The notes below the pieces were generated by a model, which worked only from the letters and a program-made list of their open reading frames with translations, ran no database searches and was not told the DNA's origin. Position numbers and translations under genes: made by a program. A stretch of 64,000 nucleotides of DNA, from positions 1-64,000 of the forward strand of contig JACATO010000921.1 of NCBI GenBank assembly GCA_018389105.1, written 5' to 3'. Positions 7,444 to 64,000 of this stretch are shown piece after piece (the stretch's first letter is position 1; every line of letters starts with the position of its first letter). The DNA comes from Nautilus pompilius. Its lineage: Eukaryota > Mollusca > Cephalopoda > Nautilida > Nautilidae.

Positions 7444-9179
7444 TTCATCTATATAAATAAGAATAATGTTAACCCTTGTGATAAGCCTCAATTAGAAATT
7501 GATGCTGGAAATATTCTTCTGTTGAAATTCCTAATAGTAGAGATGATATATCGAATATATACATCATTTCCTTCTAGATATTTTTTATTAGAATGAAAAA
7601 CAAAATTGATTCTCGTATATTAAGAATTTCTATCAAAAAACATTGATTCATTACAAATGGTTAACTTATCATGTACATCTTTGACGATATCTGGAAGAAC
7701 TGTTGATAGACATGACTTGCCAGATTTGAGATTTATCAAAAATTATAAATATTTCATTGTTTATATATTTAATTATTACAACGGTTATTTCTTTGAAGAT
7801 ATTAATTATTTTATATTTATAAATTTTCAAATTGTAATAATATTAATATATTTTTTATTCTATCTGGAATCCATTAAATAGAGAGTGAGTATCCAGGATC
7901 TCTTTGTTCTATTTCCTTCTATTCTCTTCTACACTAAAATAATTAGTAATTATTTATCATAAGATTTTGTGAGCAAATTCAATATTTCTCTTTGGTTGCT
8001 TTGAAAGAATTTGACCTTTTTACATAGAAGAAGGAAAAAGACTCTATAACCTATTCTAGATGATTTATTAAAAAATAATCGATGATTTTAGGAGTGGGAG
8101 AAGTGATACTATTTTGTGTGGTAAATAGATAAATAGAAAAGGCAGTGACATTTTTATTGTGCAGAAGTGCTTATCTTTTCAAAACTAATAAATTGATCAA
8201 CCGATATCTGGCATAGAATCCTCATCAAAATATAAGAAAGGAAGTAAAAAGAAAATAAATTAACATATTTGAAGATAAATATATTAATTACAGTTGTTTC
8301 AAGAACTGTATTCATCAATAAAAACATTATTTTTATTAAAAATGCAACAAGTTATGTACAGACTAATAATGCATTTCTTGAACAATATTCACATGATCAA
8401 TTCAATTAATTGAGTCGTAGAATTTGATATTCAAGTTAAATCATTCATATCATAAAGCAAAGACCTTTTAAAAATTAAAGATAAAATTTGTTAATTAATA
8501 TTCAAATATTAATTTGTATATTAATAAAATGCCGCAGGAAATCTTGGTTCTTGAAATGCTTCAAAATGCTAGTGGAGATAAGAAATGAAATATTAATAAG
8601 TTTGCTAATTTTGATAAGATAAAATCAACATGCATTACAAGGTAAAACATTAGTTGTATTAAAATAGTGTATTTCAAATTAGGATACTGTCATTATCTCA
8701 AATCAAAGATTGAAGAATGAATGTTAAACATTCATTTTAAAATTACCTTGTTATATTTTGTAGTAAAAAAGTAATGCTATATATCATCATTATTTTAATT
8801 TCAATGATCATGTTTTTATATAAATTGTTTGCAATCACATTTTAACTTGTTAAAAACATAAAACTAACCAATAATTCTATTAGAATAATATGTTGTAAGT
8901 ATTGTAAAAAGAGAATCTTATTACTGTCCATTTATCATTCTGACTAAAAATTAATTTTACCGTAGTGGAACACATTACAAACTTAATCGATGAATAATTT
9001 AGCTGACTATTCTGAGAACGAACATTAATTTATCTTACAGCTTTGACTGAGTTTCAAAGCATATCATAAAGATATTTAATTATTTAGCAAAAAATAACCA
9101 CAGATACTTGCATAATATCTAAACAGTTTTCCTTTAATGACATCTTTGCAATTATATATCTATATATGTTCATTATATA
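7444..9179. repeat. M array unit 4, chimeric and truncated
   Basis: The first ~1.44 kb matches unit 1 almost base for base, including an identical 74-codon frame exactly 7444 bases away. From about 8890 onward the sequence instead matches unit 3 (for example TAAGTATTGTAAAAAGAGAA and the TTATCTTACAGC block). The unit stops at 9179, within a TATATA stretch, before its last ~700 bases. Donor-like GTGAGT is at 7885-7890 and the palindrome at 8716-8736. Confidence 0.88.
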
Positions 9180-9370
9180 AAAGATAAAATTTGTTAATCA
9201 TTTATATTTTATTATTCTAATATTAATTTGTTTATGGATAAAATGCACAAGGAAATCATGGTTCCTTAAATGCTTGAAAACGCTAGACGAGATAAGAAAT
9301 GAAATATTAACAAGTTTGCTAATTTTGATAAGATAAAATCAATAAATTGTTACAAGGTAAAACATTAGTT
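9180..9370. repeat. M array unit 5 stub (array edge)
   Basis: At 9180 the sequence jumps to AAGATAAAATTTGTTAAT, a position that lies internally in the monomer (compare 8478). It then follows the monomer to the AAAACATTAGT block near 9365, after which similarity stops. The jump would correspond to loss of roughly 1.75 kb between two adjacent units, with short TATAAA-like sequence at the joint. Confidence 0.85.
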
Positions 9371-11952
9371 TATGAAAATTTTGACACTGTAAGCCAAGAT
9401 TACAGATAAAGGAAATATACTACATCATAAATTGAAGATTAACAAAAAATTTTTCCTGGTTCTTCAAAAAGTACTGTTGATTCTAAGAACAAAATGTTAT
9501 TTTAAACCATACTTGAATGCTTCTAATAAAGTTAATATTTTTCCCATGAAATTACTTTTGATATTTTTCTACTTATAGAAGCAACCCAGAAATCATTTTA
9601 TTACAAGTTTCTTCATTATAACTATACATGTTTGTGTGGAATAAATATATTTGGATATCCTTAATTAGTAATTGCTGACAAGAATTATATAATAGCAAAA
9701 TAGTGTGAAATGTGTAATACAATCTGAGGTAATAACTGATAGAAAATGATGTATATATATTTCATGATATCTGTTACATAAAATGAAATATTTTTATCGT
9801 TTTTTAAATGTTAATTATCAATCCTTAAACTTGTCCCTTTTCTTAATATAGATTGCATCTAGCAATATTCTTTAATATTTACACAATGAATTATTTATCT
9901 GACTCTTTCTGGATCCAAATAGGTAGCTATTAATTATCTACGATTTATCCATTTTCCCCCTTTTGTATGTACATTAATTGTTCTATAAATCAATTTACTA
10001 TACGTATTTCCCTTTAGGATCAGAAATTTTCAACATTATATGAAATTATTATAGTCATCCTTAATTTAAAATGATGATAGGAAATTTATTATTACTGTTT
10101 ATTTTTTACCTGCTGTTATTCCTCTTTTATTTCTTAAACGTTTTCCTGCAAATTGGTGACTTCTGATTTTTTTTTTTGCCCTCTAGTTGTTTTATTTGTT
10201 TAATGATTATTTTTCCCTATATTTCTGAGAAATTCAATACGAAGATCATAGATTGTCCAAAATGTGTAACACATACCTTTAACCATGCAAATATAATTAA
10301 TTATACATATATGTTTTCCAATTTGAAACAATTTTAAACGTTTTATACTATCCTATATCTAGTATATGGCTTCCCAGTGAAACCATACTGTAATATATAA
10401 CAATTGAATGAAAATATAATCCGTCATTTTATTTACTTATATGTTCTACATTTATGAAGTATCATAATATATCAACAAAAATAATTTTAACTCATTGTTG
10501 TTTTAAAGTACAGTAATGTAATAATAAAAGCTCCTCTTTTCATTACTTCTGCAGGAAACATTATTCAAGAACAATTATCACTAATTATTTAAAAATATTA
10601 TACTAAATTTTCTTACATGTTGTTTTAAGAATTGCATGTTGAAACACGCTGTTGTTTGATCAATATATGCAAAACTAGTGATAGCTGCCATCGGCTTTAC
10701 ATTGTTACAATATCCTTTTGCTAATATAAATTAAAACTGTCCCTAATAATTACATATTTAGCTAATTATTCACTCACATTATGTGCACTAAACTGAAACA
10801 CAATGAAAATGCTATAAATATACAATTCAGATTAATATATATCGGTTACTCTACTATAAATTAAAGTATTACTGGCAATAATATCAAACCTGATTTAGAA
10901 TTTGACTGTATTTCCCTTGGGAACAAAGTTATACAAATGGAAAAAAAATCTATTTAATTTGTTCCACAAACATTTGGATGATTTACTGGTGATAAAATTT
11001 TGAATTGAGGAATGTTATGGGTGGTATATTTGGCACATACACCGTACCAAATCTTTAGACGGCTATTCTGTTGTCAGTTTAGAATTAACTTCATATTGAT
11101 GTTGCATAATCTATGTTTTGAATAGTTTCTTTAAAATACCAATAACTTATTTGAAGATTATAATTATTATTTATTTCTGCTCAGTTATGAAAATTACTTT
11201 AATGAATCAACTTTAAATATTAGTTCAAAAGTAGATATCATCTTCATTATATTTTAGAATTTCAGAAAAATTAAACAGTTTCTATGAAAATAAATCAATC
11301 TCTAAATATACATTTAACCCCACTTATCTTAATAATTTACTTATTTCATTCCATTCATTTAAGTATTCTCTATAGCGCAAACATATTACAATTGGAAACA
11401 TTTTATTTACAGCTTTGCAAATTCCAGCACATTTGCTTTTATATATATAACAAATAAAAGATGTTTACAATTCATGCTCAAAACTTGGCAATATGCCAGA
11501 AAAAACGCTTAAATTCCATCTTTGAATACTTCCAATTCATTTATATATTATATGATTGATAGTATTTCCAATAAAACATCATGTATATGCATGCAGAATG
11601 AAATATATTTCATATTTTGGTTTGGTCAATTAGCAACACAATTATCATGTTGAAAAGGTCAGTGCAGTAGAAACAGGAACACGACAACTTTACATTGTTA
11701 TCCAAATGTAGGCAGATTATTTGAACTGTATGAAGCAGCAACCGAAAATTTCAAGCTTAATCTTCAAACATAGCTATGGATCATCATATTACATTTTCTT
11801 TATTCAGTGAACTAGTACAGGAAAATAACAATTATAAATAATTATAATTAAATTTTGATATGAATTCTACCTTTCAGCTCAAAGTTAAATTTTGTTTCAA
11901 CTTATCTGGTAAATATGGCGCTGAAACCAGATAAATAGTTTTTATATAATCA

Positions 11953-11986
<34 letters not shown>

Positions 11987-12009
11987 CTATATATATATCT
12001 GTTTCAAAA
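9371..12009. repeat. Diverged repeat block A, left part
   Basis: No gene is visible. From about 10100 the sequence is an old paralogue of 42120-44136, sharing for example AATGTGTAAC followed by CATATAACCAT-like sequence (10261 and 42241) and GTTTGATCAATAT (near 10655 and 42803). From 11020 it also matches 33120 onward (GGGTGGTATATTT). A TTTCTGGATCCAAATAGGTAG stretch near 9907 resembles the donor-like motif of the M monomer in degraded form. 9371-10100 shows nothing recognisable. Confidence 0.7.
11952..11998. repeat. (AC)n(AT)n compound microsatellite
   Basis: About twelve AC repeats run into interrupted AT repeats. The paralogous position near 44113 has only a short AACATATATATCC stretch, so the expansion is specific to this copy. 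Confidence 0.9.
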
Positions 12010-15000
12010 CAGACATTTTATTTTAAAAACAAACTGAATGAGCATTAAGTTTGTGCTATTGATAGATTTCTAAACATTCTACATGGTGTACACTTAAGTT
12101 TATCTTCAACATATGAGCTATCTTATTGGTAAAATTTATGTTTTTTTATTGCGGTGAAAGGCAAAGCTGATTTTAGTTCAAGATCACTCTTGTTCACAAG
12201 AGATCAAAACTTTCTGTTGAGTGCTTTTTGATGACCTTCCAGGCCAACTGTTACAGAATTGAAATCTGTGGTAACTTTGTTGTTGAATGTGTTTTGTAAA
12301 ATCTTAACCTTTAAACTTGGACTTTGTTGACTTTAATGGCCAGAATCTGGTACTCTTTGATCCTGCCTTTGAAAGTGAGGTATCAATATTATAATTTCCA
12401 ACTGATCGCTTGCCTATTTTCAATGAGTGCAGTGAACTAACTGTTGTCTATAAAGCTTTGAAATGCGGTGCTAGCTGGCCTCAAAACGGTCTTAAAATCC
12501 AACATGCGTTAGTGAAAAGTTGTCCAGATTGTATTCAAATTATTTATATCACATTATATTTAGTGAATATCTACACGTAGGTATTGACATTCTTTTATTT
12601 TAATCAAGATTAAGGAAATTAAGTAAATTCTGTAATGAAGATGAATTACTGCACTTGCATTAACCTAACAGAGCAGCAGTTGTTTTTTTGAAATCACAGA
12701 AAAATCTAAAGAGATGAATGATACTCCTTAGACTGCTATTATTTCTCTCGTGATATTGACGTTATTCATTAAGGTTTGTATAGTACAAGGCAATGAACAA
12801 TAATCATTAGTAAATATTAATTTCTCCTACAGTTTATATTACTAGTTAATTAGTGAAGACAGCAGCGAAGAATTACAGAATAGCAGAAAACATAATGGAA
12901 AAAAATTATACAACTATTTTTATCCTGTTTGCGGAAAACCATAATAATTTACAAATGTTAATATCTCATGATAGGCATGAGGGTATTTGAATATTTCAAC
13001 ATTTTTTTTTAAATTTCAGGATTATAAGTGTTTGTTTGTATTTGTATACTTTTAATTAATTAGAATACTTAAATTTATTTGTAATAACTATTTCACATTC
13101 TATTTGGATGCAATTTAATAGTGGGTAAGTATCTACATTTCCACCTTTTCTACTCTGTTCACCATTAAATATGTAAGGTATTATAAGATTTTCAAATGAT
13201 AAGCAGCATTTCCTTCAAAATATTTCTCAAATTATAGCATTATTTTCATTTAAAAATGCATCCTAAAGGTATGATCTTTTGAATATATGTAGGATATATT
13301 AACAATAATATGTAATGAATTTAAGGGCAGCTCATCCATTCCATCACAACAGTTGCAAATAAAATTTGTTGCTATTAGTTTGATAAAAATGTTACTCTAA
13401 TAAATACAGTGTTTCTTTCAACCTCTGAAATTTATATAGATAAACTCAGTTTACCTGAAAGAGATATGCAGAAAAACGACAAACTGTTTTTAAAAAATGT
13501 GGAATAATAGATCTAGAATATGTCACAACAATCATTCTGTTGCTAAAACAGAAAAAAAAAATTAGATTACAATATATTTACAATAATTACTATATAATTA
13601 ATCATTTCTATGATCTGGTTTCAAATAATTATTATATCTAAATAATTTAATGTAATAAATAATGAAAAATTTTGTCACAACAATTCAGAAAAGGTATACG
13701 TCACATTACAAGTTCATAAATGTTTCCATCCATATAATGACACTCATAACGTTAAAGTGTTAAGAAGGATATCAATTACATCACATGAAGATGAGCTTCA
13801 TTTTTTGTTTGTTCTAAAACGGGAGTTTGTTTCATGCAAGGGCAACAGGACTCATTTTTTTGCAAGGCAATGGGAATAAAGTTACTCCTGGTGTAGACCT
13901 GATGTATGTTTAATTTAGGAATTTACAGCTGCTATAATTCTTATAATTAAAATTGAAGTATTATTAAATATTAATCTTTTTTCTACACATTCCTCTATGG
14001 AATTAAGGTACAAAATATCTTTTCCTAAATTTATCTTTGCTTGAAACATCCACAAAATGTCAGGATACATAGAACAAAACATTTAATACAATCTATGCCC
14101 CTTACACTGACAGAAACAAGATGGGCATATCACTGTATAAAAGAGATTCATCAACAAAATTAATTGTTTTAGTATCTGTCTTTAATTAAAGATCAAGTTA
14201 TTTCCAAGATATCTTTTATTATATATAGTTTTTTATTTAACAACATATTTCAACATTAAAACAGGGTTATATATATTTTATTTTCTATCTTGATCCATTA
14301 TACAGTGAATGACTATCTAGCATGATTTTATTTTATCCTCTCCATTCACGGGAACATTAAGCTTTTTATTACGTATTTACTGTTTCTTTGAATATTTGGT
14401 CAGCAATTTTTTATATATTCCTTGAAATCTCGTATTGCTTTATATTTACAAAGTATCCTGAAAACATCAACCGTATTTCATAAATTTATTATATACTTTT
14501 ATCAGGAAGGAATGACAAATACTTCTCTCATTTAGCTCATATATTTCAATTCTAACATGGTTTTGATTGGCGCAGAAAAGCTAATAATGTTAAATATTTC
14601 CACTAATAAGTGTAACAACACCCTCTTTTTATGCTTAGATGCAATATGACTTTAATAATCATTATAGAAGAAACAACATTTCTGCTCAAAAATTAGACCA
14701 ATATCAGATGTATTACCAGAAAAATCTGAAATGTAATCAAATCTATATTTATGATGTGCTTGATCTAACTCAATTAAATAATTTTTTTTATAAAATAATA
14801 TATATTTTTTACTAATATGTGGACAACATCTTTATTTTTATCTCCTAAGAACAGTCTGTGGTAAATAAAACTGGTAGAAGAAACGAAAATAAAATTTCAA
14901 AATCTGGTATGGAATCACTTTGGAAATGTTGCAGACAAAATAATAATACTTTTGGATAAATAGACTATATTGAGAGCATTTCGTGTTCGAATGATGGAAC

Positions 15001-18000
15001 TGATTGTTCATGTGTTAGTGAAATAAATTCAAATGTTGTATAATATTACGTTTTAATGTTGTGATTTATCGGAGAGTTAAAATTTCTTTTTGATCACGAA
15101 GCATAAACATTTATTTAAATGAATGATACATTATTTTCGTTATTATTTATGTAAAATGGTTTCTTTATTTTGAATTTATATGAACAAATGCGCAATGAAC
15201 TCTTTTTATCATGTTTTGCATGACGCATAGAAAAGCTATGAAATGAAATGGTAACAGCTTTCCTATTTTTTTAAGATGAACCATTAATTGTTATGAGAAA
15301 AAAACATTAGAGAAAGTAAAACCAGTGTATTTATTTATTTATTTATTTATGTAGATACTTTATACTATTTCTAAGATCAAACAGTGAAGAACGATTTTTA
15401 AATATTTCATTTCAAAGTAACTTGTTTTCTTCTATGAGTAGAAGAGCGCTACTAATATACATATAACAAATTCGTTTAATTTCAATGATTAGTTTTATCA
15501 AAATGTTTTACTTTCACATTAGTGACAAATTAAAAAACATAAAATTAAACAATTTATTCTATTAGATTAGTTCTTGGCAGAATTTGTTACTAAGTGAAAA
15601 CATTGGAAAACTATAAAACATTGGAGAAGATTAGAAATTAAAAAAAAAACTAACACTGAATAGATTTTCAATATTTTTTTTACTGAATTTGTTATATTTG
15701 TTTTAAGCATTAAGAATTTTAAAGATAAATTTTGCTGGATCAATTTCTGCCAACCTTTGATGGCTTCAATCATGTTGACTGTAATACGATAAAATTAACT
15801 TTTCTCTAAGTGTGCACAAGTTAACCAATGAGGCACTCATATATTGCATACAAAATCGAAACTCAAAAAAAGACCCATACATTTTAAATTTTATATCAAT
15901 ATATATGTCACTTTTCATTCTATAAATAAACCATTACTAATGTTAAAAATCATTTGATTAAAATCAGTTTATACCAAATGTGCTACAATTTCTTTAACAA
16001 TTTTTTTTAAAAAGCTAAACAACAATATTTTGATCGATATTTAATTGTATAATTTGATAACCAGTAATATTAAAATTTTTTGGTTAAATTATCACAATCC
16101 CAACCTTTTATTGCTATTTAGAACATATATTTAGCTGAATCGTAAAATCACATATCTACTATTCCTGGAGAAAATGCTTGAAATATATGTGGTGTTATAT
16201 ACATTCCAGTTAGATTTTTAATAATGAGGTTAACTTAAGTAAAGACATGAAGAGGTAATTATTAATACATGTTTACAATAAAGCTTGATAGACAGTGTTT
16301 CATCTACTTGTTTAAGAATGTATATTCATCTTTATTTATCAACCTGTATAATCATACATCAGTTTGTATATTATTATCACTATGTATAAAAACATTCTCT
16401 TAAACTTAATTATCATTTTATCGCAATATTTCTGTTTTTGTAAACGAGCATTGACAACAGGGTTTACATAGCTTAAATTGATAGTAATTGAAAAGATTTG
16501 CTATATTTTTATAAAATAATAATTAAATTTATTTTCAAATACTTCATATAACCTGACATTGATGGCAGCATTTAAACTGTAAATTACTACATTTATTGCT
16601 CAATTTTTTTTGAAATTTTGTTTATATCTTCTCACTATTATCTATTCATGAAAGTTAGTTTGACTCTATGAAACAAAATATTTTAAGATTCTTGCTGAAA
16701 TTTCCTCCATTGATTTTTGTATTATTATTTATTTACACAACGGTTTAATATACAACAAATTTTAATTATATATATTTTTCCAATTTGATTCTAATTCTGA
16801 CATACATGTCGAATTTCCAATCGAAGATATAACGTGTTCCATTTATGTTTCTTTCTATATTTTGACTGATTCATTTTGACTATCGTAATATTAAGTTTCT
16901 GTTTTTCTGTTTGTTGATGTTTAATAAATATATAAATGTGCAATTTAAACGAATGCAATTAGTTTAACATTTCATGACATCTTAAGAGAAATTATATCTT
17001 TCTCAACTATAGCGTAAGAAGTAAAAGCCTTTTCCCTCCGGTATCGTAGAGTTTTTCGCAAAAATATACTCAAATTATGTTTTATAAACATGTGCATGTA
17101 GGTAGTGGCATTAGAAGAAGAATGTGATTACTTTGTTTTTACCTAAAGGCAGCAGTTGTTCTATGAACCACAAAGAAAGTTTAAAGCTGGCAAATGCTAC
17201 TCTTTTAGAAATATTGCTTGTGGTAAAACATCATTCGGAAGTTTAATATTGTTGGGTTTACAGGCTTCCTTAATAACTGGCACTAAATAATATCCTCTTG
17301 TGAATATTTGTTTTTACCTACATTTTATAGAATATAATTTAAATTACTATCTAATTAGAAAATACAACTCCTAACAATTTCAAATTAGCATTATACCTAG
17401 GGGCCGTGTATCATTTATCATGATAATCAGAATATATTTGATTATTTCAGTATTTTTTAAAACAGTAAGACAGGATTGTAAGAGCTTTTTATCAATTGCA
17501 TACTATTCATTTAATTGAATACGAAAGCTAACCAAACTGTACTAATTATACTTTATTATAACTGGATGAAATTTATAGTGAGGTAAGTACCTGCCATTTG
17601 TCATTTCTCCTCTCGGTGTATTCACCATTGAACTAGATTTTTTCTAATAAATGTTTACGCTTTACTAACGTTTTACAGAAAATGTTATTGAAATTGTTAC
17701 ATTAATCTTGTGCTGATAAAATACCTATTTTGTTTGAATGTTGTTCATTAAGTTAATGTTGGAATGAAAATGGCTGGAATGTGTTTCCATCTATTAATAA
17801 CCTGGTAAAAACAAATATTTTTCTGCTCTGAACACAACAGTTAAACATTAATTTCAGCAGTTTTAACGGATATTATTTTAGAATATTTTATACCAATTCT
17901 GACATTCATGTTAAGTCTCTACTTATTTTCAATAGAAGAAGGAATAGTTTTCATTTATATCTTTTTTATATTTCTAATATATTCCTCATACTGTTTAATC

Positions 18001-21000
18001 TATTTTTCGTCGAAGTTTAACAAATGGATAAATTGGTTTATATGTCTATGAATAGTTACTTTAGAATTTAATTACTTTAATTGGAAATTATATCATACTT
18101 TACCGAATAAAATCTTCAGACGAAAAAATGTTTTCCTTCAGTGTTAACTAGAATTTTCTAAAAAAAATTTCAAAACATTTGCCTTTCATTATATTTCATG
18201 TTGTACATATGTACTGAAACTCACAGATGTCAAGCAAGATGAAAGAAATAAACAAAATAATATTAAGAAGATGAGCATAATTACTCTGTTTGCACTTCAC
18301 CCAACAAAGTATTTATCATTTATGTACTACAACCAAATTTTGAACTAGAATTGTGTAAGCTATAGAGAAACTATGTCAATAGTTGGAAGACCTAATAATG
18401 GCAAAATTTTACATCACATGAGAGTCATTAACGCATTTAATTATTACAACAAATTTTTGAAAATTTAATGTCATTTCTAAAAACATTATTAAAATAATAA
18501 TTTCCATATATATTAGTTATTTACGAGATGTTTGCTTTCCTTAATAATACATTCTACAATTTGAACAATTTATAGTAAAAGTGAATAATCTAGCTTTGAA
18601 TATTATTAGTATGCATTTCTAAAGTATATATTCATGAGTATCATTTACATGATTAGAGTCAGTACTTTAATCATATTAGAAAATATATATATACTGGTTT
18701 TATCAATTGAATAAATCATCAGGATTTAAACAAAATAATAACTTTCTCTATATTATTTAAGAAAATCTTTCAATAGCTCCATTATTTAAAAAAACTATCA
18801 TTTAATAAAAACAATCATCCTTTATTTCTATATTTTCTCAGCGATGGCCACAATTTTTGCATTTCCTTATATAGTACAATGAGAAAATAATGCTTCACTT
18901 TATGCTTAAGCTTTCTATACCCATTAATAATTTCTAAATATTATCCTTTTAAATACTTAGATTTATGTGTCACAATTTTATAATTTTTAGAGTATTTTCC
19001 AAATCATGCATTTACATGTTACTTTTATGCAAGAATACGTAAATGTAATATTATGCTTTTTCTGCAAATTCAGTTGGAGTTCAGTAGACAGAAATAAATA
19101 ATGTCCTGATGCTGTGTAACTTGTGACTGTGATAGCAGATGAGATTTGCATATACTCTAGGTAGCTATTTATACCAATATAATTATCATGAAATTTATTT
19201 TGGATTCTAATACGATTCCTGGCATTTCTATCAAAACAACATTCTTTCCAAATGATAAAAATGCTTTCTGCTTTTATGCATATATCTGATTCATTTTAAA
19301 ACATGAACACTACAATGTTTAATATCTGATTGCCAAAATTCATAGAGAATGCTATATTTTTAAGGAAAATTCCTGACAACGCATGTTCTTATTAGCTGAT
19401 GTTATAATTATATAAACACTAAAAACCTTTTCACTGATTGAAACTGAAGATTTCTATCAAACGTTCTCAAAATGTTTACGTAGTATTTAATTATATTAAG
19501 GTTTTCAGGTATGTAATGTTACTGATGAATGATATACAAACTATAGGACATTAACAAAATTATCAATAGGTGATGAGAAATATTATTCTCTTGATTTACT
19601 TTCCAAATTAATTGTTTGATCGTACAACAATAACGGCATTTTACTCGTGTCACCATGCTCCTCAATAAATCTGTTTTATTTTAAAATTTTCTGAGATGTA
19701 GTTATCTGTGTAGCAGCAATATGAAGAAAATGCAGCTATGGAGAGAAGGAAAACAAGATTTCTCATCATACAGCAGATTTTAATAACGATGTTTTCTTTC
19801 ATAAAATGGAATGTTTTAATGCCTAGTGCATGTTAATTGGTACATCTATGAAACCTCGAAGGTTCAGCCGGAAGTAGATTTTAGATAATGAAGTAATGAT
19901 GTGGAGACTTCCTATTACTGTCTGTGAGCAATTATTTCGTAAATATGAATATTACCTTAACTTTTATATATACATATTTGTAACAAAATGATTGTTACCA
20001 TTTTATTTTTCTAAATTACTGATGATAAGTCTGCACATGGTGAATGTTTTACATTCTAGTGAAGAAAACAAACTCAAAATACATGACTAATTAAGTCACA
20101 CTAATTGGCATGTATTACATAAAATTAGTGACTTAAATGATTTCGATCATTTTTCATTTTTAAAAATTAAAGAACACATACACAATTATATAATTTATAT
20201 TAATCAAAACAAAATTATCCCTTTATACCTTAATATGTTACAATTCTGTATGTGGAATAATTTATAGAGTGATTCAATTTTAATCATTTTGTTCACAGTT
20301 AAATTTTTGCAATTTTGAAAAAAAAATGACTATTTCCATATTAAATTGAGATTGTAGGCTTGTAGCATGACATATATGGTTGATAAATAGGGATTATAAA
20401 ATTAGTTACATATCAGATATAATGAAAATTATCTAGTCATCTCAGCACCTGTTTTTCATTAAATCCAACACTGTTAGGTTAATTTTGTAATTGCTTAAAT
20501 TATATTCAACAACATTGCTTCAATTCAATATCAAATAACTTCTAATACACCTTTTATTAATTTTTTTCTGTGATCCTTAATTTATACTAACAGTGTTTTT
20601 ACTCTCTGTTTGCTATAAGCATTTTGAGCATCTTACTAATTCTTGAGTATTTATCAATGATGTTTGGCATGATTACAATTAATACTGCACAATTTTAGAA
20701 AAATCATTAACTCAATTTAGCAAAAAACCAGCTTGAATTTAAACATGAATGTGTACTATTGTGCCTTGATGAATTTCAAAAATTGATTTCTTTGTATATT
20801 ATCCATGAAATATCAACAAATATTATTCATCGTCATACCAACTCAATGTGTTAAAAAAAGTAGAAATATTTATATCTTTTGTTGTTATGATGTCTTTTCA
20901 GAATAAATAAAGAACAGACCATTTTGAAATGATTTTGGACACATGACCGGATGGTTGTTACTATTCTGCATTAATATATAATCAGTATCAATTTGATGTA

Positions 21001-22566
21001 TCTTAGATTTCTCATTAAACAATCTAAAGGATATATTTAAATATAAATGACCAATTTCATTTTGATCTTAATGATCTTTTCTATGAAACAGGTCAGCGGT
21101 AAATATTTATTATTCATTTTTATGTCTGTATTTCCAATTGATTGCTGAATAAACCTTCAAAGCATGAGTATTTGTTTCTTCTTATGTATTTCAGTATATT
21201 AGACAAATTTGTTGATACTGAAGCACTCTTATAATAAATGAACTTGATATACCTTGGAACTCATTCTAGACCACATTTTATTTCCTTAATTATCATTCAT
21301 GGTTTTGTTTATCTTACCCAGATGAGGAAGTTCTACTTTTATTGAATTGATAAATTTAGAACAAAAGATGAATGTAAAAAAAAAAAAAATTAAATAATAC
21401 AATTCAGAAGAATTAATCATAAAATTGATGTAACCACTGAGTTGTAAAGGCCTGCTCTTTGGAATTGCTCTCCTTTTCATGAACGAGGTAAAGATCGTTA
21501 CTTTCAACAAACCATACGATCTTGTTATTGATAATTTAGAAAATTGTTTGTATTGCACAACTAAATAGTTTAACCAAAGAAATATTTGTATCAAATTTAT
21601 GTACATACTCGTAAATGTGTCACATCTCACCTGCATGAAGTAAAAACTAGTTAAAAGAACAAATTTTCAAGGAAGATCTCAGAGTTATTCGAAACATTAT
21701 CAGTTCTCTGACGGCGTTTCCATAAGAGAATGCTGAAGCAGCTTGTTGAGAAGCATTAGTTTCTTTTTGATAATTTAATTTTAATCAACCATTCTTCCAC
21801 TAAAGACACAGATGTACCAAGTTTATTTATTAATGTTTGTGTGATCTGATCAATATATTTCCTAACTTCTGTAAATTGTACAGCATAAGGGACACTCCAA
21901 ACAAATGTTTTTGACAACATTAATAAAATATTCATGCTAAAGAGAACAAATGTAATTAACGTTTGCACCAGGTTATTATTTGCCAGCTGAAAAATGCGAT
22001 TTTGGGCCGACAACTACATAAAATTTGTACCCCATTTCTGTACTTGCACATAGTGCAATTTTAGGTTTAGACATTTTTATATTTTATTTATATTTTAGAA
22101 AAACTGATTTTCTGCACAGAATTATTCTGTTCATGCATCTATGCAGGGCAATTTATGGTCAGTGGCAAGATGATAGAAGAAACCAAATTATGGCATTTTG
22201 GAGCATTAGCCATTTAGGTATAAATGTTTAAGAGATACACAATATTAAAATAAATAATAGATGTTTTGTTTTGCTTAAGTTTATACAACATCTTGAATTC
22301 TTCATTGGTTAACTTCTATAGCGTTAACATATTCCATTGGTAATCAGTAATAGTAAGTGTTCAGTATCTTTATGATTAATACATGAAAAAGTAACTTGAA
22401 AAAATAAATATATATATAAACAATATTTGATGTTATCTATACACATATTTTTTGGTTTGTTATTGGCAAGGAAAAATAGAAAATGGTTTGAAAGTAGATA
22501 TTTGTATTGTATATCAATCAGCGGTTGCTACTGCTGACTACAGCATGAAGGTGTATCTAAATGAGT
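12010..22566. repeat. 10.6-kb duplicated segment, copy 1
   Basis: This segment is repeated in the same orientation at 44137-54805. Identity is graded over the first ~200 bases, then nearly complete to about 17560. It drops clearly between about 17560 and 19370, with many substitutions and a ~230-base indel, and becomes nearly complete again from 19370 to 22566. Inside are old copies of the M landmarks: donor-like GTAAGT at 13125-13130 and 17583-17588, a broken donor near 14305, and the GAAATGAAATGGTAAC block near 15240. Apart from a possible minus-strand exon at 21756-21986 I see no gene. Confidence 0.92.
21756..21986 (-). CDS. Possible terminal exon, hydrophobic protein (copy 1)
   Basis: On the minus strand, TTTTTCAG at 21987-21994 looks like a 3' splice site. 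It is followed by an open frame of about 76 codons to a TAA at 21756-21758. The frame starts LANNNLVQTL, has a hydrophobic stretch around TFVLFSMNILLMLS that could span a membrane, then SVPYAVQFTEVRKYIDQ and a basic end KIKLSKRN. An in-frame upstream extension exists but has no ATG. The product is not recognised. An identical reading frame lies at 54006-54236, and a decayed homologue at 59556-59756 keeps an AG at the splice position but has indels. No upstream exons were found. Chance openness is possible, and the perfect match between the two copies may only reflect recent duplication. Confidence 0.25.
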   Translation of the reverse strand: MANNNLVQTLITFVLFSMNILLMLSKTFVWSVPYAVQFTEVRKYIDQITQTLINKLGTSVSLVEEWLIKIKLSKRN

Positions 22567-24151
22567 AACTAATTAGTGATTTTTCCAAATGAAGTGTGCT
22601 ACGGAACAAATATTATTTTTACATAAAATATATTGAAATGTCTTTTTTAAAATTGAAAAAATAAATATTGGCAAATAGTTTAAAATTAAATATAAAGAAG
22701 GACATGGAATAATTAATAAATTTATTTAGATTTATATTTACAAAAATGTTGAAACACAATTTGTCATTTAACCCTATTGCTTTTGAAAATAATGACCATT
22801 TTATGCTCATTTTCTTAAGAATATTTATTTCATTCTTTAATAGAAGAGGAAAGAGACAATATTTATTTATTTGAAAGGTTGACCTACAATCAAAACAGTT
22901 AGAAAATAATTTGGAAACCAATATCCTTCTGCATTCATTAGATTCCAAGCAAAAACAAATTTAGTTGCTTTAGTAAAATACATCAAATAATTTTAAAAGT
23001 TACATTAAAGAAGAATAGGGAAAATTGTTTGAAATATTTAAAACTAATATTCGAAAAAAATATTGTATTTTGAAAAATGTAAATACCATAAAACAAAACA
23101 GAAAAGCCAATAATCTTACTGATATTTGTAATATTAAAATTTTACTGACCAACATCACTAATTAAATGAAACGTTAATTGCTTGTAATTTAATATTATAA
23201 TCCAAATTTCATTTAGGAACCATGTCTGAAAATTTAAAAAAGCATATTTGATAAATTTAATATGATTAATATTTATCAGAAAATGATAAATCAATAGTTC
23301 CCCAAAAAATTTATTCAAACAATTTCATGAATGGGTTTCAAGAAATGCAGCTTTAATTGTGGAACATTTTATTCAGAATTTGGACAATTAAACACTTACC
23401 TATTACGATCCTTTAATAACTAACATCATTTGTTAACTCATCTATTAGAATATTTTAATGTTGAAAACTTAATTATCCTTCTGAACAATTCTAAATTAAT
23501 CTTCGAATATAATTACCCATATTTCTATGTCAGATTTATTGGTTGCGGAAATACATTTTCTCTCCACCTTCAATATTTCATGATTATTTGAATCAACTCT
23601 TTATTACAAATAATCAGGTAAACGATGATATTTTCATTATGAAAACTGGAAATAATGTTTAAACAAAACCTTTCTAAATTGTATTTCTGTAGGATTAATA
23701 TTTTACTGGAAAAATAATATTAAATGAAATAAATGTTTCTTAATAATATCCTGTAATTAATATTAAAATATAATAATAGAATAACATGTGGAAGCTACTT
23801 CAGAATAAGAAACAAATATTTAAAGAAATATTCGAAATACATAAAACAAAATATTCTGCAGCTAAATTTAATTTAGTAAATGATATTAATTTTATGAATG
23901 TTCACCAAGTTTTTCTCATTTTTACGACTATACTTCAAGCTGTGATTGCTAAATAAACAAACTTCGAAATCTTACCTGCCAGGCAATAACCGAGACCTAA
24001 GCCGACTTTTGAAACTGTATTAAAATATCTTAACTATAGAAAGCTGTAAATCGGAATCGATAACACATATCTGAATTTGCTGCATAGGTAGCAAAATCAT
24101 CTGGAAGTTGAGAAAATGTTAATTTTGTAAATTTATGCAGCATTTTAGAGA
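22567..24151. repeat. S repeat block 1, ~1.65-kb monomer
   Basis: No gene is visible. Landmarks recur elsewhere in the same order: GGACATGGAAT near 22700 (compare 55724 and, more weakly, 25690 and 63940), CAATCAAAACAGTTAGAAAA near 22890 (55907), GGTTGCGGAAATACA near 23540 (55014, 61563), and ATTGCTAAATAAACA near 23946 (63517). After removing the inserted elements, the spacing from 22720 to 25700 and from 60750 to 63950 is about 1.65 kb in each case, so this is a tandem repeat distinct from M. Confidence 0.8.
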
Positions 24152-24350
24152 TTACACTGGTCAACACAATTTTTCCTGACTTATATCTGAGACTTGTTTC
24201 TGACTGATTTGGGGCTGCTGAACTCAAATATCACATTCGTTATTGCCTACCACATCAAGTTTTTGCACTACAGTATGTATACCCCCATTTTTTATCAATT
24301 GCCATAGAAAAGTACCCGATTACAATGATTTCCACAATCACCTCAATCCT

Positions 24351-24578
24351 ATTCTTATCATTTTATTTAGAATACCATCCAAAAAAACAATATCATGAAT
24401 CAATTTTGAGATTAACAAATACATTGGTTAACTATGACATATTGGGTCAAAATATTGAAATAGAAAAATATAAATCAATGCTAGAATTGAATGAATTTTA
24501 GTCAAAAATGGGCACAAACTAATCCAGAATATTCTTATCATTTCATTTAGAATACCGTACAAACAAAACAATGACAGA
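24351..24578. repeat. Internal direct repeat of the CACTGG element
   Basis: About 45 bases beginning ATTCTTATCATTT (24351) recur at 24531 with several changes, 180 bases apart. They lie between the left inverted repeat and the 3' end of the broken gene. Subterminal repeats of this kind are common in DNA transposons and may bind transposase. Confidence 0.7.
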
Positions 24579-24642
24579 CATGGGTTTATTTACATTAACT
24601 GATATCAGTAAATGACACATTCTTCCTTCATGGATTAAATTT

Positions 24643-25400
24643 TCATTTGTAGACTTTTCTGGAATGCGTCATTTCCAGACAGTCTCTTTTAATACTCAAA
24701 CAGTAGTCAGTTATCATGTGAGTATCCTCCCTTCCTTGGTATCACTCCTTCTTAGCTTGCATATCTTGATGGATCCTTTCACCTTGCTCATCACTTATGC
24801 CACCTAGATTTTCAGGATATTTATCAAGATGACTGTTGAGGAAATGAACCTTTATTTATGCTCATGTTGAAACCCAGACGATGAAAATTCTTAAGCAATG
24901 TTTGAATAAGATCTTTGAAATTTTCAACTTTTTTGTTTTCCAGGAAATTGTTCACAACAGCCACAAAATAATTCCATGCTCTTTTCTCCATATCATTCAT
25001 GGAGCTTGTGAAATGTTGATCTCTCATCAGTTTTCTGATTTGTGGTCCATCAAACACACCAGCTTTTATTTTTTCATAATTGAGGCTAGGAAATGTTGTG
25101 CCTATGTACTTGAAACAGTCACTTTCTATGGTCAGAGCTTTAACATACTGCTTCGTTAGACCCAGTTTGATGTGGAGAGGAGGAAAGATGATTTTTACCT
25201 GATCTACTAGTGGTTGGTTTTTGATATTTGGTTCCCCGACATTTAAGCATGTTCTCACCAGCCAGTTCTTCTAAGTCCAATGCTTGTCCTTAGTTCTACT
25301 ATCCCATAGGCACAAGAAACATGGTTATTTTGTGTATCCTCCTTGTTAACTATTTTAAGATCCTGTAGAACAAAAACTTGAACAAATGCAAAATGCCGTA
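24643..25400 (-). pseudogene. Broken transposon-borne gene, CFLCLWDSR family
   Basis: Read on the minus strand from about 25400, this is the C-terminal half of a multicopy animal protein family that I recognise by motif but whose function I do not know. In order: DLKIVN; GGYTK, a stop, then CFLCLWDSRTKDKHW; after a frameshift, the open stretch 25258-24824 with PLVDQVKIIFPPLHIKLGL, YEKIKAGVFDGPQIRKLMRD and NFHRLGFNMSI; after another frameshift, HLDKYPENLGGISDEQGER; and finally DYCLSIKRDCLE with a TGA at 24643-24645. The block expected between DLKIVN and GGYTK is deleted, and the N-terminal part is absent. It lies entirely inside the CACTGG-ended element, so it is most simply a remnant of that element's own protein. 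Confidence 0.8.
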
Positions 25401-25489
25401 GAACAAAAACTTGTAGGCAAACACTGATTTTATTTTTGAAATCAGTACCCCAAAATTAGTTAAAAACAAGAAAATGTTGGCCAGTGTTA

Positions 25490-35105: not shown

Positions 35106-38100
35106 GTAAGTATCTGTAATTTCATTTGTTTATTAATAGAAGAATTTTTCGTCAAACCATTATTTCATTTGGTTGAATAGAAAAGGATAAGCAGTTAAAA
35201 ATAAAAGCAAAATTCTTTTGTAATTTTGGAACACAATATAATTTATCAGTAAAATAAGGATAATGTACTATTAATTAAACACTTGACTTTGTCTCTACCT
35301 GAAGTTTTATTTATTTTTCCTGTTATATATAACTCAAACTGAAATAAATGGATCTTTTTTAATTTTTGAATGTTGTTAATTTTACTAATATGCCTTATGA
35401 ATTTAGGTTCTTTAGAATCAAAGAAAGAACATTTGATTTTCATGCTTCTGTTTCTAATTCTAACTATTTAGTGTTTCAATTGAACTGGTCTTTATATTCT
35501 TTTTCATATCATGCTGCCTTCTGAGTAATTATAAAGTGTAATTACAAATGGCTGAAGGCAATTTATATATATATTAATAACCAAATGAGAATGAACATTT
35601 ACCTCTAAATCAAAGTGTAATAAACCAAAATGCTTTCACTTCTTACAAGTGATGATTCTCACAATTGCTCAGATAAGCTATACCTCACATTACACGTTCC
35701 TTAATGTATCTACGCATGTAAAGACATTCATAACCACATAGTTGAAAGGGTAAAAAAAAAACCACATTACACATGGATGGACATAAATGATTTGGTAGTT
35801 CGAAGGCAGGAGGTATTTCATCCAATAACAATAGCACTTTTTTACTCATGCAAATTAGAATAATATTACTCATAGTTTAGACTGGATGCAAGTTAAACTA
35901 TAGAAATGTACATTTTAAAATATTACCCAAAATATGAAATATTAGCAAATATTCAGCTTTTTTGTGACAATTTTTGGAAATAAGTTACAAAACAGGTTTT
36001 CCTAAATTTACTTTTGCTTCCAACATGCAATAAATTGCAGCTAACGAAATACAGATTATTAAATATAATCAATGCCACTAATATACACAAAATTATGAAA
36101 ATAGCTCATTGCATATGACATCCATATAGAAATTCACTTGTTTCAGTTACTTCAATAATAGGTTAAGTTATTAGTTAGATGTCATAAATTAATGTTCACT
36201 TTACATTTATTAAAATTTTCCAACATTAACACAGCAATATATTCGCTCTTATTCTATCTGGATCAAATTAAACAGAAAGTGAGTATCTAGCAGATTTTTA
36301 TTTTATACTCTTTAAATTCACATGTACATTAAAGTTTTTATTAACAATTTAGTGTCTTTGAAACTTTGATCATTGATTTCTTGATATATTCTTAAAAAAT
36401 ATTGTATTCACATTGTATTTACAAAATATCATCCAACATTTATCAGCAAAATTTAATAAATCTAAAATAACCTTTTATCAAGAATGAAGAAATATTATTT
36501 TTCATTGACCACATAAATTTAAAAGTTTTGATGATTTTGATTGGCGCAGTACAGCTAATTATTTTTTGCACATTTTAGACTAACTAGTGTAACAACACCT
36601 CTGTTTTAAACCTAGATTTAATCTGACATAAATAATGATGGTAAAACAAAGAAAGTCACAGCCCAAAATTTTGACAAATATCAAACTATATAATTTCCTC
36701 AAACATTACACACAATGGTAAACTTATTTTAATAAAATAAAAAATATATTTAACAGCCATGGATTATATTAAAATGATTGAATTTTAAAAAACTAAAATT
36801 ATTTTTAATAATAAATGAAACGCATCATTATTTAGTTTCACTCCCAAGAAACATTATTACATAAATAAAACTCGAAGAAGAAACAAAATTACAGCACGAA
36901 AAAATATTATTCCAATATCAAGTATGGAATCACTCCGCAATAATATTTCAGATTAATATACTCTATTGGAAACTTTTCACAAACTATATTCAATGGATAA
37001 TTTCAAATTTGATATAAAACCTGATTAATCAAATAAATTAAGAGTATGCAAATATTTTGTTTTACTATTGCTGTTATAACATATTTTAAACTTAATGATA
37101 CATTATTTCCCTTTTATTTATCTAATTTGATTTTTATGTGAATGAATGAGCTGAGAAATCTTTTAAATCACATTTTTCGAGATGCATAGAATAGCTATGA
37201 AATGAAATGGTAACAGATTTGCTACCTTTTATAAGATCAATCACTAATTGTTATAAGATAAAACAACAGATGTATTAAAACTAGTGTATTCATTTAATGA
37301 GGAACATTCTCAGATCAGACGTTGAAGGATGATGCTTCAATAATTAATTTCAAAGTAACTTCGTTTTTATGGGAAGAACACTAATTATATATGTAATCAT
37401 TTATTTAATTTAATGATTAGTTTATTATCATAATTGTTCGCTTTAATTTTAGTAACTAATTAAAAACAAATATAACCAAATTATTCTATTAGATGAATAT
37501 TTAACAGACTTTGTAACAAACAGAATCTGATTATTGTACTTTTATATTTACTCTCGCAGAATTAAGTGTGCCACAATAGCACGCATTACAAGCAGAATCC
37601 TTAATTCACTTTTGTAACATCACTGAGCACTCAGATTAATTTCAATTTGTGTCTTGCATGTTTCTGTGACCTGTGAATTTCTTTGAATAACTTTAAGATA
37701 CTTAATGATTAAATACAAAAAAATAAGTAATACTTGTTTAATATTTCAATTGTTTTCTTTCACTTATATATTTTCAATTGATATCAATGACATAAGAAAC
37801 TCTGTTACAGTTGCAATATTTTAATAACTTTAATCTTTGTTTATTAATATAAGAAATTTTCCTTGAAGCAATTGCTAATTTTATAGCATATAAAGTTGAT
37901 GGATGTGAAACAAGCAAATAAAATGTTTCTGCAAATTTGAAAGATTTAATTTATATAACAAGAAAGAATTGAAAATATAATTTGATTGCTATAATTTGGT
38001 TCTGATTCTTCTTAAAATCTTATAATTTATCCAGGTAACTATGAGCAACATAAATATATTATTTATAATACTTGACTAACATGATGCTAATACCATTCTT

Positions 38101-40000
38101 TTTGCTGTCATACAAATGTTATTAACAATCAAAGAATGAACGTTTAACATTCATGCTTTGGTGTAATTTTAGCTGGTTCAAGTTTCAGTCTTAGGAATCA
38201 GTATATATTTTTTGCATTGTTTTATTGATCATATATAATTTAAATTTCAATTAACAGTAAACTTTATATATATAAGCTCTTGGCTACATTATTTCTACCG
38301 AAAGTAAAATCATAATAGCCAAGATTGAATTTAATTAGTACAGCTAAAATTTTGTCAAAAATGTTAAGGCGTGGTTTACGATACATTGCAATTCATTGAC
38401 GTACCGAATGAATGTAATGACACATAACAAATCAGAGATATGGAAGAAGTTACCTATACAATATCAATACAAACAAGATTATTTATTAATAGATTTAAAA
38501 CTAAAGTTGATTTATCAATCGGCAAAAACAATATTTATTTCATCTATACAAATATGAATAGTGTTACTCCTTTTGCGAAGTCAGAATTAAATTTTGATGC
38601 TGGAAATATTTGGCTCTAAAAATTCCTAGCAGTAAAGATGATATAAGAAATACATTCATCATTTTCTTCTAGACATAATTTTAAGAAATGATAAACAAAA
38701 TGTTTTCTTAAGTATACCATTTCAATCAGAATAAATTGATTTCTTACACACCTGGCAAAAAATATTACGTACAATCTTTGCTGAAACTGGAAGGCACAGA
38801 TATGAAATTTATCAAGAAATTTAATTCTTTTAATATATATCTTTAATTAATTACAGTTTTTGTAGACGTCATTAATTATGATATATTTTCCATTTTTCAA
38901 AATTTTATAATATTAATAATACAATACATTTTTGGATTCTATCATGATCCATTTAAACAGAAAGTGAGTATCTGGTTCTTCTTTATTCTATATTCATTCC
39001 ATTCTCTTTTGCAATAAATTTTAGAAATTATTAATGGCTATTTTTCGTGACCAACATCTGATATTTCTAGAAAGTTTCAAAGAATTTGACATGTACTTTT
39101 ATGAAAAGAATGGAAAAATATTATATTACCTATAATTGCTGTTTTTCTTAAAATTAATTGATCATTTTATCATAGGAAGAAAATGATACTTTTTAGTTTA
39201 GCAAATAAATTTAAACAAAACAATGTTTTTGATTTTTACAGTAAAGGTTTTCTGTGGTTCAGATTAATTTTACTAATAAGTAATATGTGACTTTGATTTC
39301 ATTTTGATATTCATGAAACAGTTTGACCGATATCTGGTAAAGAATTCCAATGCAAATATTATAGAGAATGTGAAAAAAATGTAATATATTGTAAGATAAA
39401 TAGAATATTTTAAATTGTATCAAGGACTATATTCATATAATAATTTAATTTTCAATAAATAACATTATTTTTGGTAATAAATGCAAAAAGATATATATAT
39501 ATATAAAGGGTTTCATGAATAATATTAACATGATTTCAATTAAATGCAGTGTTGAAATTTATATTCAAGTCAAATGTTCATTTATATCATAGAGCATAGA
39601 AGTTTTCAAAATTTATGTTAATTTCGATATCTTATATTTTAATTACTTTTCATTAATTTGTATTATTTTTATGAATGAAATGAAAATCTTGTTTATTAAC
39701 ATTCTTCAAAACGTTATAATAGTTATGAGTTGTGAAGGAAATAGATTTGCTAAATTTGATGCATTGAATCTTTAATTGACATAACATATAACAGGAGTAC
39801 TGGAAAGGTTATATTTTGCTAATTAATATTCTAATCTTGTTTTTATTTTAGATATTTGAAAGAAAATATATTAATATTAAATTTCAAATATATTAAACTT
39901 TTTGTTTACTTTTATGCAGTATAAATTATTACTGGTGTAGATAAACGTTTGGTTAATTTAAACTATAAGTTCCTAGCATATCTTTGCATTAAGTAAAATA
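35106..40000. repeat. Degraded M monomers in block B
   Basis: Donor-like sites GTAAGT at 35106, GTGAGT at 36279 and GTGAGT at 38964 mark successive M-type monomers. The 36279-38964 interval (~2.69 kb) keeps the M order: TATGGAATCACTC (36925), GAAATGAAATGGTAACA (37198), the ATAGCACGCATTACAAG block (37576), an acceptor-like TTTATCCAG ending at 38034, and TTTCATCTATACAAATATG near 38536. Array units at 1-9370 share the same order, so they derive from one ancestor. No gene is visible. Confidence 0.8.
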
Positions 40001-40506
40001 AAGAGATATAATTGTTTAGATTAAATTTTCTCACAATTTGTAACCAAATTGTAATTACTGTGCTCTTGAAAATACTTTCCAATATTTAGAGTGCATGAGT
40101 AGCTGAATCTTTATATGACATATCCGTCATTACTGTAAACAAAATTTTAATTTTACTTGATTTTTTCTTTGCTTAGAATTCTTCTTTAAACATATTAGCA
40201 TGTTTTATTCTTTATTCTAAATAACTACAAATAATTGTTTAATATTTCCCAAAGCGAAACAATATAGTATAGCTCGCAGTCACATAGCTATGCTTGTACA
40301 ATAAAAGTGGACATTTCTCTTCATTGGAAATTTTGTAAAAAATGTAACTTAGTTTTGAACACATTACATGTTTCTGACTATTGTTTTAATTTAACTATTT
40401 GTATTAGATTTAAACAATTTTTTATAATGCACGCATATCTGTCAAATATGAATTACACGTCAATCAATTTTAATTTGGCAATATTATCATTAAAGAGGAT
40501 TCCACA

Positions 40507-40930
40507 CAGGGGCGTAGCTAGCGTTTGTGCCGCCCGGGGCAGTCGTAGAATTTGCCGCCCTCTAAATAACGTAGAATTTCAAAACCTCCAAAAAATTCAT
40601 TTTTTATTTATTTATTTATTGAAAAAAGTACTATTAGAAAATAAAAATTATCAAATATATAATGAGAAAATATTGATATTCAATTCAAAATTAATTAGAA
40701 GTGACTCACTTCAAGTGAGCAAATTTCTTTTACAGCAAATTTTAGAAAAACTTTCTTCCATTCAAAAAACCACCATTAAAAATTGAACGAAAAATTCAGG
40801 AAAAAAATAATATCTGGAAAAATAGAACGAAAAAATACATTATATATGTAACATACTGTTCTGAACTAAATTTGACAACCAAAAAATGCCGCCCCCCAAA
40901 ACGTGCCGCCCCCCATTAGCTACGCCCCTG
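40507..40930. mobile_element. hAT-like non-autonomous element (MITE)
   Basis: This 424-bp element has perfect 14-bp terminal inverted repeats CAGGGGCGTAGCTA, flanked by an 8-bp direct duplication ATTCCACA at 40499-40506 and 40931-40938. Just inside both ends are GC-rich GCCGCCC stretches that contrast with the AT-rich centre. An 8-bp duplication with CAGGG-type ends is typical of hAT elements. A frame crosses the element but shows no transposase motifs, so mobilisation would need a transposase supplied elsewhere. Confidence 0.92.
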
Positions 40931-40938
40931 ATTCCACA

Positions 40939-42119
40939 TAAATATAAATATACAGCATTTAATCACAATTTGTCAAGTATACTTCTAATACAAAAATATT
41001 TCCCATGATTGTTAAATGGTTATTGATTATCCTCTCTAGCTACCTGACATTCACAAAATATACATAATCTTGATATTTAAATTAGTGTTCATTTCTAGTG
41101 TCAAGATATGTATCAAATCCTTTTGTATTCAAAGAAGAATGTCTGACATTGATGGGTTTTTATTACCTTTCTTTCAGAATCTGTACTTCATACAATTAAG
41201 GCATTGCATTATGTAAAGATAAGAATCATCTTTACTCCAATAATTTCATCATACCTTTTGTTCTAGATTTTTTTAACTTTTGTAATCGTTCCACCAAAAC
41301 ATCTCACTTTTTATATACACTTGTAATTAGTACAAATTTTCCCTTTTTCTTTGAATATATGTTAAAATTTTAATTTAAATTCTCCCTTTATTCTGGCTCT
41401 ATACTGTTAAAAGAAGTATATTTACACCTGTTTATCATGTAATTTAAAATATATATGACTACTCCTATACACCATACACTGCCTTACCTTTCATATGATC
41501 ATCTCCATTCATTATACTGAACAAGAACATACACCTTCCATATGAACTCGTCTATATTATGTTTTTTGCCAAAATTCAAATGATATCCAGATGGCATAAA
41601 ACCAATTATACCTTTTCAAAATAATTTGAATTATATTTGTACCTCACAAACTAAGAACACACCTTTACAAACTTCAGAAACAAACACTACAAGAAACTCT
41701 TCAAATTTCACTTGAAGCTAATCTTTTTACACATTTTCAACCTATTTCAGTCATTCTCAAATAGAATTAAAAGTCATTTGTATCTACTTAAAACCCCCCA
41801 AAATACATTGAAAAACTTGGCCATAAAATATTCTACAGCATCATATATATACACACAGACACACAAAGAATCTCTCAAAATGACCTTCCTATGATACAGA
41901 CATAACTTCCGAACCTAAAATAGATTTATCGAAAGTAAGCTGCGAACTTACTGTTACGGTTTTATTTGTCCATATTATTTTCAAAATTATTAACCTATTT
42001 AACAAAATTATCATAACAGACTCGTGGCAGCGATATGTTATTAAAACACCCTTTTACTATTTTCACTAACCTTTTCATTATTTTTTCTTGATATAAAAAT
42101 GTTTCCTGTTAAATTACTT
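40939..42119. other. No supported gene; pyrimidine-rich plus strand
   Basis: I find no recognisable gene and no clear repeat partner. The plus strand from about 41440 to 41900 is relatively rich in C and T. 40001-40498, left of the MITE, also shows nothing. Confidence 0.45.
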
Positions 42120-57167: not shown

Positions 57168-57169
57168 TA

Positions 57170-57281
57170 CAGGGTGCGGCAAAATGATCTGACACATTTG
57201 TATTTTTAATAAAAGCCAAAGAGAGTAAAGAACGAAAAATTTGTTTTTATTTTCGAAATGTACATAGAATGCCATTTTGTT
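57170..57281 (+). repeat. Left terminal inverted repeat of the DD41D element
   Basis: This 112-bp repeat starts CAGGGTGCGGCAAAATGATC and pairs with 58415-58526, with a single G/T difference (CCAAAGAGAG against CCAAATAGAG). Confidence 0.95.
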
Positions 57282-57332
57282 CCAATTGATGCATTGTTGA
57301 CATTTTGTTTCATTTCATTTTCAGTTGCCGAC

Positions 57333-58414: not shown

Positions 58415-58526
58415 AACAAAATGGCATTCTATGTACATTTCGAAAATAAAAACAAATTTTTCGTTCTTTACTCTATTTGGCTTTTATTAAAAATACAAAT
58501 GTGTCAGATCATTTTGCCGCACCCTG
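58415..58526 (-). repeat. Right terminal inverted repeat of the DD41D element
   Basis: This is the inverted partner of 57170-57281, ending GCCGCACCCTG against the TA duplication. Confidence 0.95.
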
Positions 58527-58528
58527 TA

Positions 58529-63162: not shown

Positions 63163-64000
63163 TATGGTTTTGGTATTTATTGCAAATATTCAGGTAAATG
63201 ATGATATTTTTATTATGTAAACTGAAAATATCTTTTAACAAAAACCTTTGCAAATCAAGTTTTTCTAGTATTGACACTTTACTAGAAAAATAATATTCAA
63301 TGTAATGACTCTTTTGAAATATTTCCTGAAATAAAATATTGAAAAAAAATAAAAGATTATATAGAAGCTTTATCACAATAACAATAAAAATTTTCATAAA
63401 TATTTGAATTCTATGAGCATAATATTCTCCAGATCAATTAAATTTAATAAATGATATTAATTTAGTAAATTTTCACTAGGTTTTTCTCATTTTATAATTA
63501 TCCTTCAAATGGTAATTGCTAAATAAACAGGCTTCGAATTATTATCTGGAAGGTAATAAAAAGAGATCTAACCAGACTTTAATAAGTATTAAAATATATT
63601 AATTATAGAAAGCTGTAAAATGCAATTGAAAATAAGTTTGTGAATTCCATGTGTACTTTGAAAAAAAAATCTGGCGGTTGTCAAAAAAGTTAATTTTGTA
63701 AAATTATACAGATTCATTATTATTGTTGAAATCTGTAATATTAACATTCAAATAAAAGTTATTAATTTTATTTTGAAAAATCAAAATAAATTTTAAAATC
63801 ACCTCAAGTTAATGATTTTCCAGATGAGAAAAGTTACACAAATGTATGTTTTATAAGGTACTTCAAAATATGTTATTTCTAATGCTGAAAACTGTATATT
63901 GGAATGTCATCTGAAAATTGCGTTAGAAGAAGGAAAATTAAACATGGAACAAATTTATTTGCATCAACATTTACAATATATGTTAGAACATAAATCATGT
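63163..64000. repeat. S repeat block 2, third part
   Basis: The S monomer resumes exactly after the Tc1 element with CAAATATTCAGGTAAATGATG (compare CAAATAATCAGGTAAACGATG at 23608). It continues through ATTGCTAAATAAACAGGC (63517) and GAAAGCTGTAAA (63608, compare 24038), then TTATTATTGTTGAAATCTG (63718), the empty-site counterpart of the CACTGG element. No gene is visible. Confidence 0.8.

Follow-up and report, generated by a model that had tools for sequence, protein, structure and literature searches.

A decayed DNA transposon copy, probably of the Chapaev3 type, in a contig of Nautilus pompilius

Closest described transposons and recombinases

Chapaev3 transposons, reportedly described by Kapitonov and Jurka in 2008, are distant relatives of the RAG1 antibody-gene recombinase. 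Elements of the Transib/RAG1 kind produce 5-bp target-site duplications, as opposed to the 3-bp duplication at the locus analyzed here, and the duplications of PIF/Harbinger elements show a preference for TWA. The available parts of PMC4079192 give CAC and GTG as the termini of Chapaev elements and C(2)C, LH and H(4)H as the motif order of their transposases. Furthermore, Chapaev3 elements are characterized there by 3-bp TWA duplications with insertion between A and T. Those with coding exons measure 807-2455 bp in the available part of Table 1 of that paper, and deletion derivatives are described. An N-terminal zinc domain, termed Chapa, is a Chapaev3 feature according to the available part of PMC4411706. 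For the CMCT assemblage, the accessible part of PMC12730594 reports transposases in which C(2)C and H(3-4)H lie between the second D and E. According to this source, the ends are mostly CA..TG and the duplications 2-5 bp long, and some EnSpm elements combine CAC..GTG ends with 3-bp duplications. RAG1 itself carries D708, C727/C730, H937/H942 and E962 in this order (PMC4914335, part available).

The window, i.e., the whole stretch of DNA analyzed, comprises 64,000 nucleotides of N. pompilius contig JACATO010000921.1. Within it, an insert of 1332 bp (24155-25486), bearing a gene remnant on the minus strand, is probably a dead, internally deleted copy of a cut-and-paste DNA transposon of the Chapaev3 type (CMC clade), at a probability of roughly 0.78; this assignment is based on ends, target site and motifs rather than on an alignment with a Chapaev3 transposase or a tree. 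The insert resembles Chapaev3 elements (Merrow, Garfield, Conan), as presented in the available parts of PMC4079192, in its CAC..GTG ends, its TWA duplication between A and T, its C(2)C, LH and H(4)H motifs and its size class, and internal-deletion derivatives are likewise found among them. It differs from them by the absence of the N-terminal half of the gene and by its decay.

The insert, its ends and the unoccupied site

The following features delimit the insert and its target site.

24155..25486, minus strand: whole insert, probably a defective Chapaev3-like element (inverted ends, TTA repeat, paralogous empty site)
24152..24154, no strand: target-site duplication TTA, preceded by A (empty-site alignment)
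24155..24166, plus strand: terminal inverted repeat CACTGGTCAACA, on the 3' side of the gene
24193..24271, plus strand: diverged subterminal inverted repeat, partner of 25398-25470 (71% over 79 columns)
25398..25470, minus strand: diverged subterminal inverted repeat, partner of 24193-24271 (71% over 79 columns)
25475..25486, minus strand: terminal inverted repeat CACTGGCCAACA, on the 5' side of the gene
25487..25489, no strand: target-site duplication TTA, followed by T (empty-site alignment)
63426..63997, plus strand: paralogous repeat unit with unoccupied target site, junction at about 63711-63717

The terminal inverted repeats match at 11 of 12 bases and start with the CAC..GTG termini given for Chapaev in the accessible parts of PMC4079192. 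TTA is present on both flanks as a 3-bp target-site duplication. The insertion site has the layout A-TTA-CAC...GTG-TTA-T and thus shows the TWA duplication with 5' A and 3' T known from Chapaev3, a target preference read here from one site of one copy.

Exact matches to the 12-base end pattern of the preliminary description occur twice in the window, once per strand. With up to two mismatches, eight occurrences were counted versus 4.31 expected, and 10 of 100 shuffles reached at least eight; at this tolerance the pattern is at chance level in the window. Moreover, 26 pairs of sites in the window match inversely at 11/12 bases or more, lie 1-2 kb apart (outer distance) and are flanked by a 3-bp repeat; these are the insert's own ends, its own subterminal repeat and 24 others. 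AT bases strongly predominate in the window, with a GC content of 0.23-0.375 per 2-kb block. Because of this composition and the 24 other pairs, inverted ends plus a 3-bp repeat are, taken alone, weak evidence. A scan for AT[AT]A-CAC...GTG-T[AT]AT pairs whose duplications are equal and which are separated by 80-4000 bp covered 9 left and 18 right sites at a cut-off of 6; it returned the insert's pair with 11/12 matches and two others with 6/12. Diverged inverted similarity follows inward of the 12-bp ends (71% over 79 columns). A global alignment of the two 125-bp ends, the terminal 12 bp among them, had a score that was also reached by 8 of 5000 randomly chosen places with this geometry. GC content is 0.34 in the insert and 0.247 and 0.24 in the 1-kb flanks.

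Decisive evidence for an insertion is provided by the empty site. When the flanks are joined and one TTA is left out, they align to 63426-63997 without a gap at the insertion point, and this alignment is part of a match that extends over 841 columns at 75.6%. Weaker paralogs at 60270-60694 and 55380-55644 also align across the insertion point and lack the insert. The insert sits in a repeat of which diverged copies occur near 55.0-55.9 kb and 60.3-64.0 kb. An exact empty site had been claimed beforehand; continuity at the insertion point was borne out, and exactness has to be qualified, given that the best paralog (63426-63997) shows a 5-base gap whose right edge is 5 bases to the left of the point, with a 1-base gap slightly further left, and that the point falls in a short TTA run. 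Because of this run, the length of the duplication rests on the empty-site alignment. A second copy of the insert was not found within the window.

Further repeats were recorded in the window. A Tc1/mariner-like element at 57167-58529 is bounded by 121-bp inverted arms (98% complementary) and holds two overlapping open reading frames in different frames; one has a DUF4817 helix-turn-helix, and in the other a DDE_3 match falls short of Pfam's cut-off. Another, more diverged Tc1/mariner-like element at 61732-63038, which has 79-bp inverted arms that are 81% complementary and a minus-strand DDE_3 match at 61883-62362, sits between two parts of the repeat that supplies the empty site. Positions 1-9182 comprise four tandem units, each about 2.48 kb long, that are 86-97% alike; a diverged relative (66-70%) is located at 37176-39760. 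A large duplication links 10350-22575 to 42519-54815, about 32.1-32.3 kb apart and 86-95% identical in three listed pieces. An open frame of 159 codons at 40307-40786 (plus strand), which had no Pfam match up to E 0.01, lies where the GC skew is strong (-0.263 in the block 40001-42000), near a short tandem array (40879-40915).

The protein remnant and its comparison with RAG1

The gene remnant is composed of the following elements, listed in its own reading direction.

25348..25413, no strand: tandem pair of 33-bp copies (79%), at the expected start of the missing 5' half of the gene
25348..25362, minus strand: DLKIV, candidate second catalytic D (putative role), in a frame other than that of the following part
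25328..25345, minus strand: QGGYTK
25295..25321, minus strand: CFLCLWDSR, C(2)C motif
24824..25258, minus strand: longest open stretch of the remnant, 144 codons
25157..25183, minus strand: PPLHIKLGL, LH motif
24823..24849, minus strand: VHFLNSHLD, H(4)H motif, in a frame other than that of the LH block
24763..24792, minus strand: DEQGERIHQD, candidate catalytic E
24646..24711, minus strand: C-terminal remnant TDYCLSIKRD...HSRKVYK

On the minus strand, DLKIV, QGGYTK, CFLCLWDSR, PPLHIKLGL, VHFLNSHLD and DEQGERIHQD thus follow each other, and the C-terminal part extends to 24646. The remnant spans more than one reading frame, contains stops and lacks its N-terminal half. Between DLKIV and the end of the insert only the end region of about 124 bp remains, which includes the tandem pair of 33-bp copies, and the missing 5' half of the gene was probably lost by internal deletion. 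The Chapa domain and the first catalytic D would fall in this deleted half. Past the 3' end of the remnant, the insert also contains a 55-bp direct repeat (24333-24387 and 24513-24567, 78%, 180 bp apart).

C(2)C, LH and H(4)H are present in this order, followed by E, and are split over two reading frames. CFLC fits C(2)C, PPLH fits LH, HFLNSH fits H(4)H and DEQGE fits the final E, which may be either E of DEQGE. Of the catalytic triad, a candidate second D (in DLKIV) and the E are visible, the first D being expected in the deleted half. When loose spacings were allowed, the motif order arose in 4 of 200,000 shuffled versions of the 192-residue read-through, and none of 1338 blocks taken at 95-residue intervals from the six frames of the window contained it; the spacing limits of this control were chosen after the sequence had been seen, and none of the blocks need contain the remnant, its two parts being in different frames.

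Spacings between the motifs amount to 46, 108 and 17 residues (14 if the first E is taken) in the remnant versus 65, 142 and 20 in RAG1, where LH was placed at H795 of the piece used. The RAG1 pieces were typed and agree with PDB records except at 3 of 126 and 0 of 53 positions. The best local alignment between the N block and RAG1 is the LH region, with a score reached in 22 of 2000 shuffles, and the score of the C block was reached in 1219 of 2000 and is no better than chance. The motif pattern therefore fits, whereas RAG1 and the remnant share weak overall sequence similarity or none. Transib/RAG1 proteins are alike in motif order and in similar spacing; as differences, RAG1 has CTLCD(A/T)TR in place of CFLCLWDSR and longer spacings, and no significant overall sequence match to the remnant was obtained. 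A transposase residue pattern of the CMC/RAG1 type in the remnant is supported.

Searches of Pfam and NCBIfam with the decayed remnant yielded no family; one Pfam match at E 0.17 was rejected. The C block had no PDB match up to E 10, and the five PDB matches of the middle block, with E-values between 0.017 and 0.055, are to designed proteins and to serine palmitoyltransferase and represent unrelated folds. For the 144-aa open stretch, the predicted fold had a mean pLDDT of 44.4, too poor to be used. A 118-aa piece gave 18 pattern matches and no confirmed relatives in viral contigs, and tblastn of this piece returned no matches in phages and none in plasmids. DNA patterns of the peptide motifs hit 0, 3 and 0 stretches in viral contigs and 0 and 2 in prokaryote genome contigs. 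Five retrieved loci (L001-L005) showed best tblastn E-values of 0.15 to 4.5 over 8-26 residues and were regarded as chance. The viral, prokaryote, phage and plasmid DNA searched yielded no confirmed relative of the remnant.

Assignment of the element and its meaning

Other classifications have to be weighed against Chapaev3. Membership in the wider CMC/CMCT group, as an EnSpm/CACTA element or as a lineage of its own, would account for ends, duplication and motifs, since the accessible part of PMC12730594 lists for EnSpm/CACTA, Mirage, Plavaka and ESTA mostly CA..TG ends, short duplications and the C(2)C and H(3-4)H motifs between the second D and E, and since CAC..GTG ends with 3-bp duplications occur in some EnSpm elements. 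The A-TWA-T target, reported for Chapaev3 in the available parts of PMC4079192 and found at the insert's one site, points away from this group, and we consider such a placement unlikely. Equally doubtful is a related proposal for the protein family, according to which it forms its own lineage within or beside CMCT that resembles Chapaev3 in ends and target and is distinct from it in sequence. Its members would then have passed for host genes in animal gene sets until now, and the domain libraries scanned would lack a model for them.

The remnant might also derive from a host gene or retrocopy that was captured by a transposon mobilized by another protein. A single broken copy in the window and the failure of any Pfam model to detect it would agree with a capture; as the remnant occupies much of the element and its motif order is that of a transposase kind fitting the ends, this origin is very improbable. 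The 3-bp TWA duplication found at the insert is a feature of PIF/Harbinger elements as well. Canonical Harbinger elements make 3-bp duplications (PMC12730594, part available). No Pfam transposase model, be it for the IS5-type DDE enzyme expected in PIF/Harbinger or for another kind, matched the remnant, though the copy is decayed, and its motifs are of the CMC kind. To our knowledge, CAC..GTG ends together with a C(2)C-LH-H(4)H protein are not typical of Harbinger. An assignment to PIF/Harbinger by duplication alone was therefore set aside in view of ends and motifs, and its chance of being correct is minimal.

The Chapaev3 reading also bears on the claims of the preliminary description. The ends, the TTA repeat and the CFLCLWDSR, PPLHIKLGL and DEQGER motifs were all confirmed in place, and its proposal to assign the protein to a DNA transposon bounded by these ends gains support from the location of the remnant inside the insert and from its CMC/RAG1-type residue pattern. 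Its further suspicion that the link between ends and protein is undescribed is probably wrong, the combination being reported for Chapaev3 in the accessible parts of PMC4079192. Novelty is low because the combination of ends, target and motifs matches Chapaev3 as already described. In the literature searched, the peptide strings were not found linked to the name Chapaev3, papers seldom printing such strings; 'Chapaev' together with 'CACTGG' had no match, CACTGGCCAACA appeared in one unrelated plant paper only, and a PANTHER number for the protein family had no match.

Based on the Chapaev3 assignment, an intact element would encode a RAG1-type transposase, zinc-bearing and RNase-H-like. This enzyme would attach to the inverted ends and subterminal repeats, excise the element and join it to an A-TWA-T target, where a 3-bp staggered cut would give rise to the TTA duplication. 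The present copy inserted into one unit of the local repeat; its gene, whose N-terminal half was probably removed by deletion, has decayed by stops and frame changes. Since the gene is broken and its N-terminal half is missing, the copy is presumably unable to make transposase and could be moved, if at all, only by enzyme from another copy.

The significance of the finding lies mostly in annotation. Animal gene models with motifs of the CFLCLWDSR/PPLH/DEQGE type presumably make up an 'uncharacterised' family, which may be widespread and multicopy. If this family is Chapaev3, which is the likely name for what had been thought uncharacterised, such gene models would be transposase copies, and the motif equivalence would offer a simple rule for naming them.
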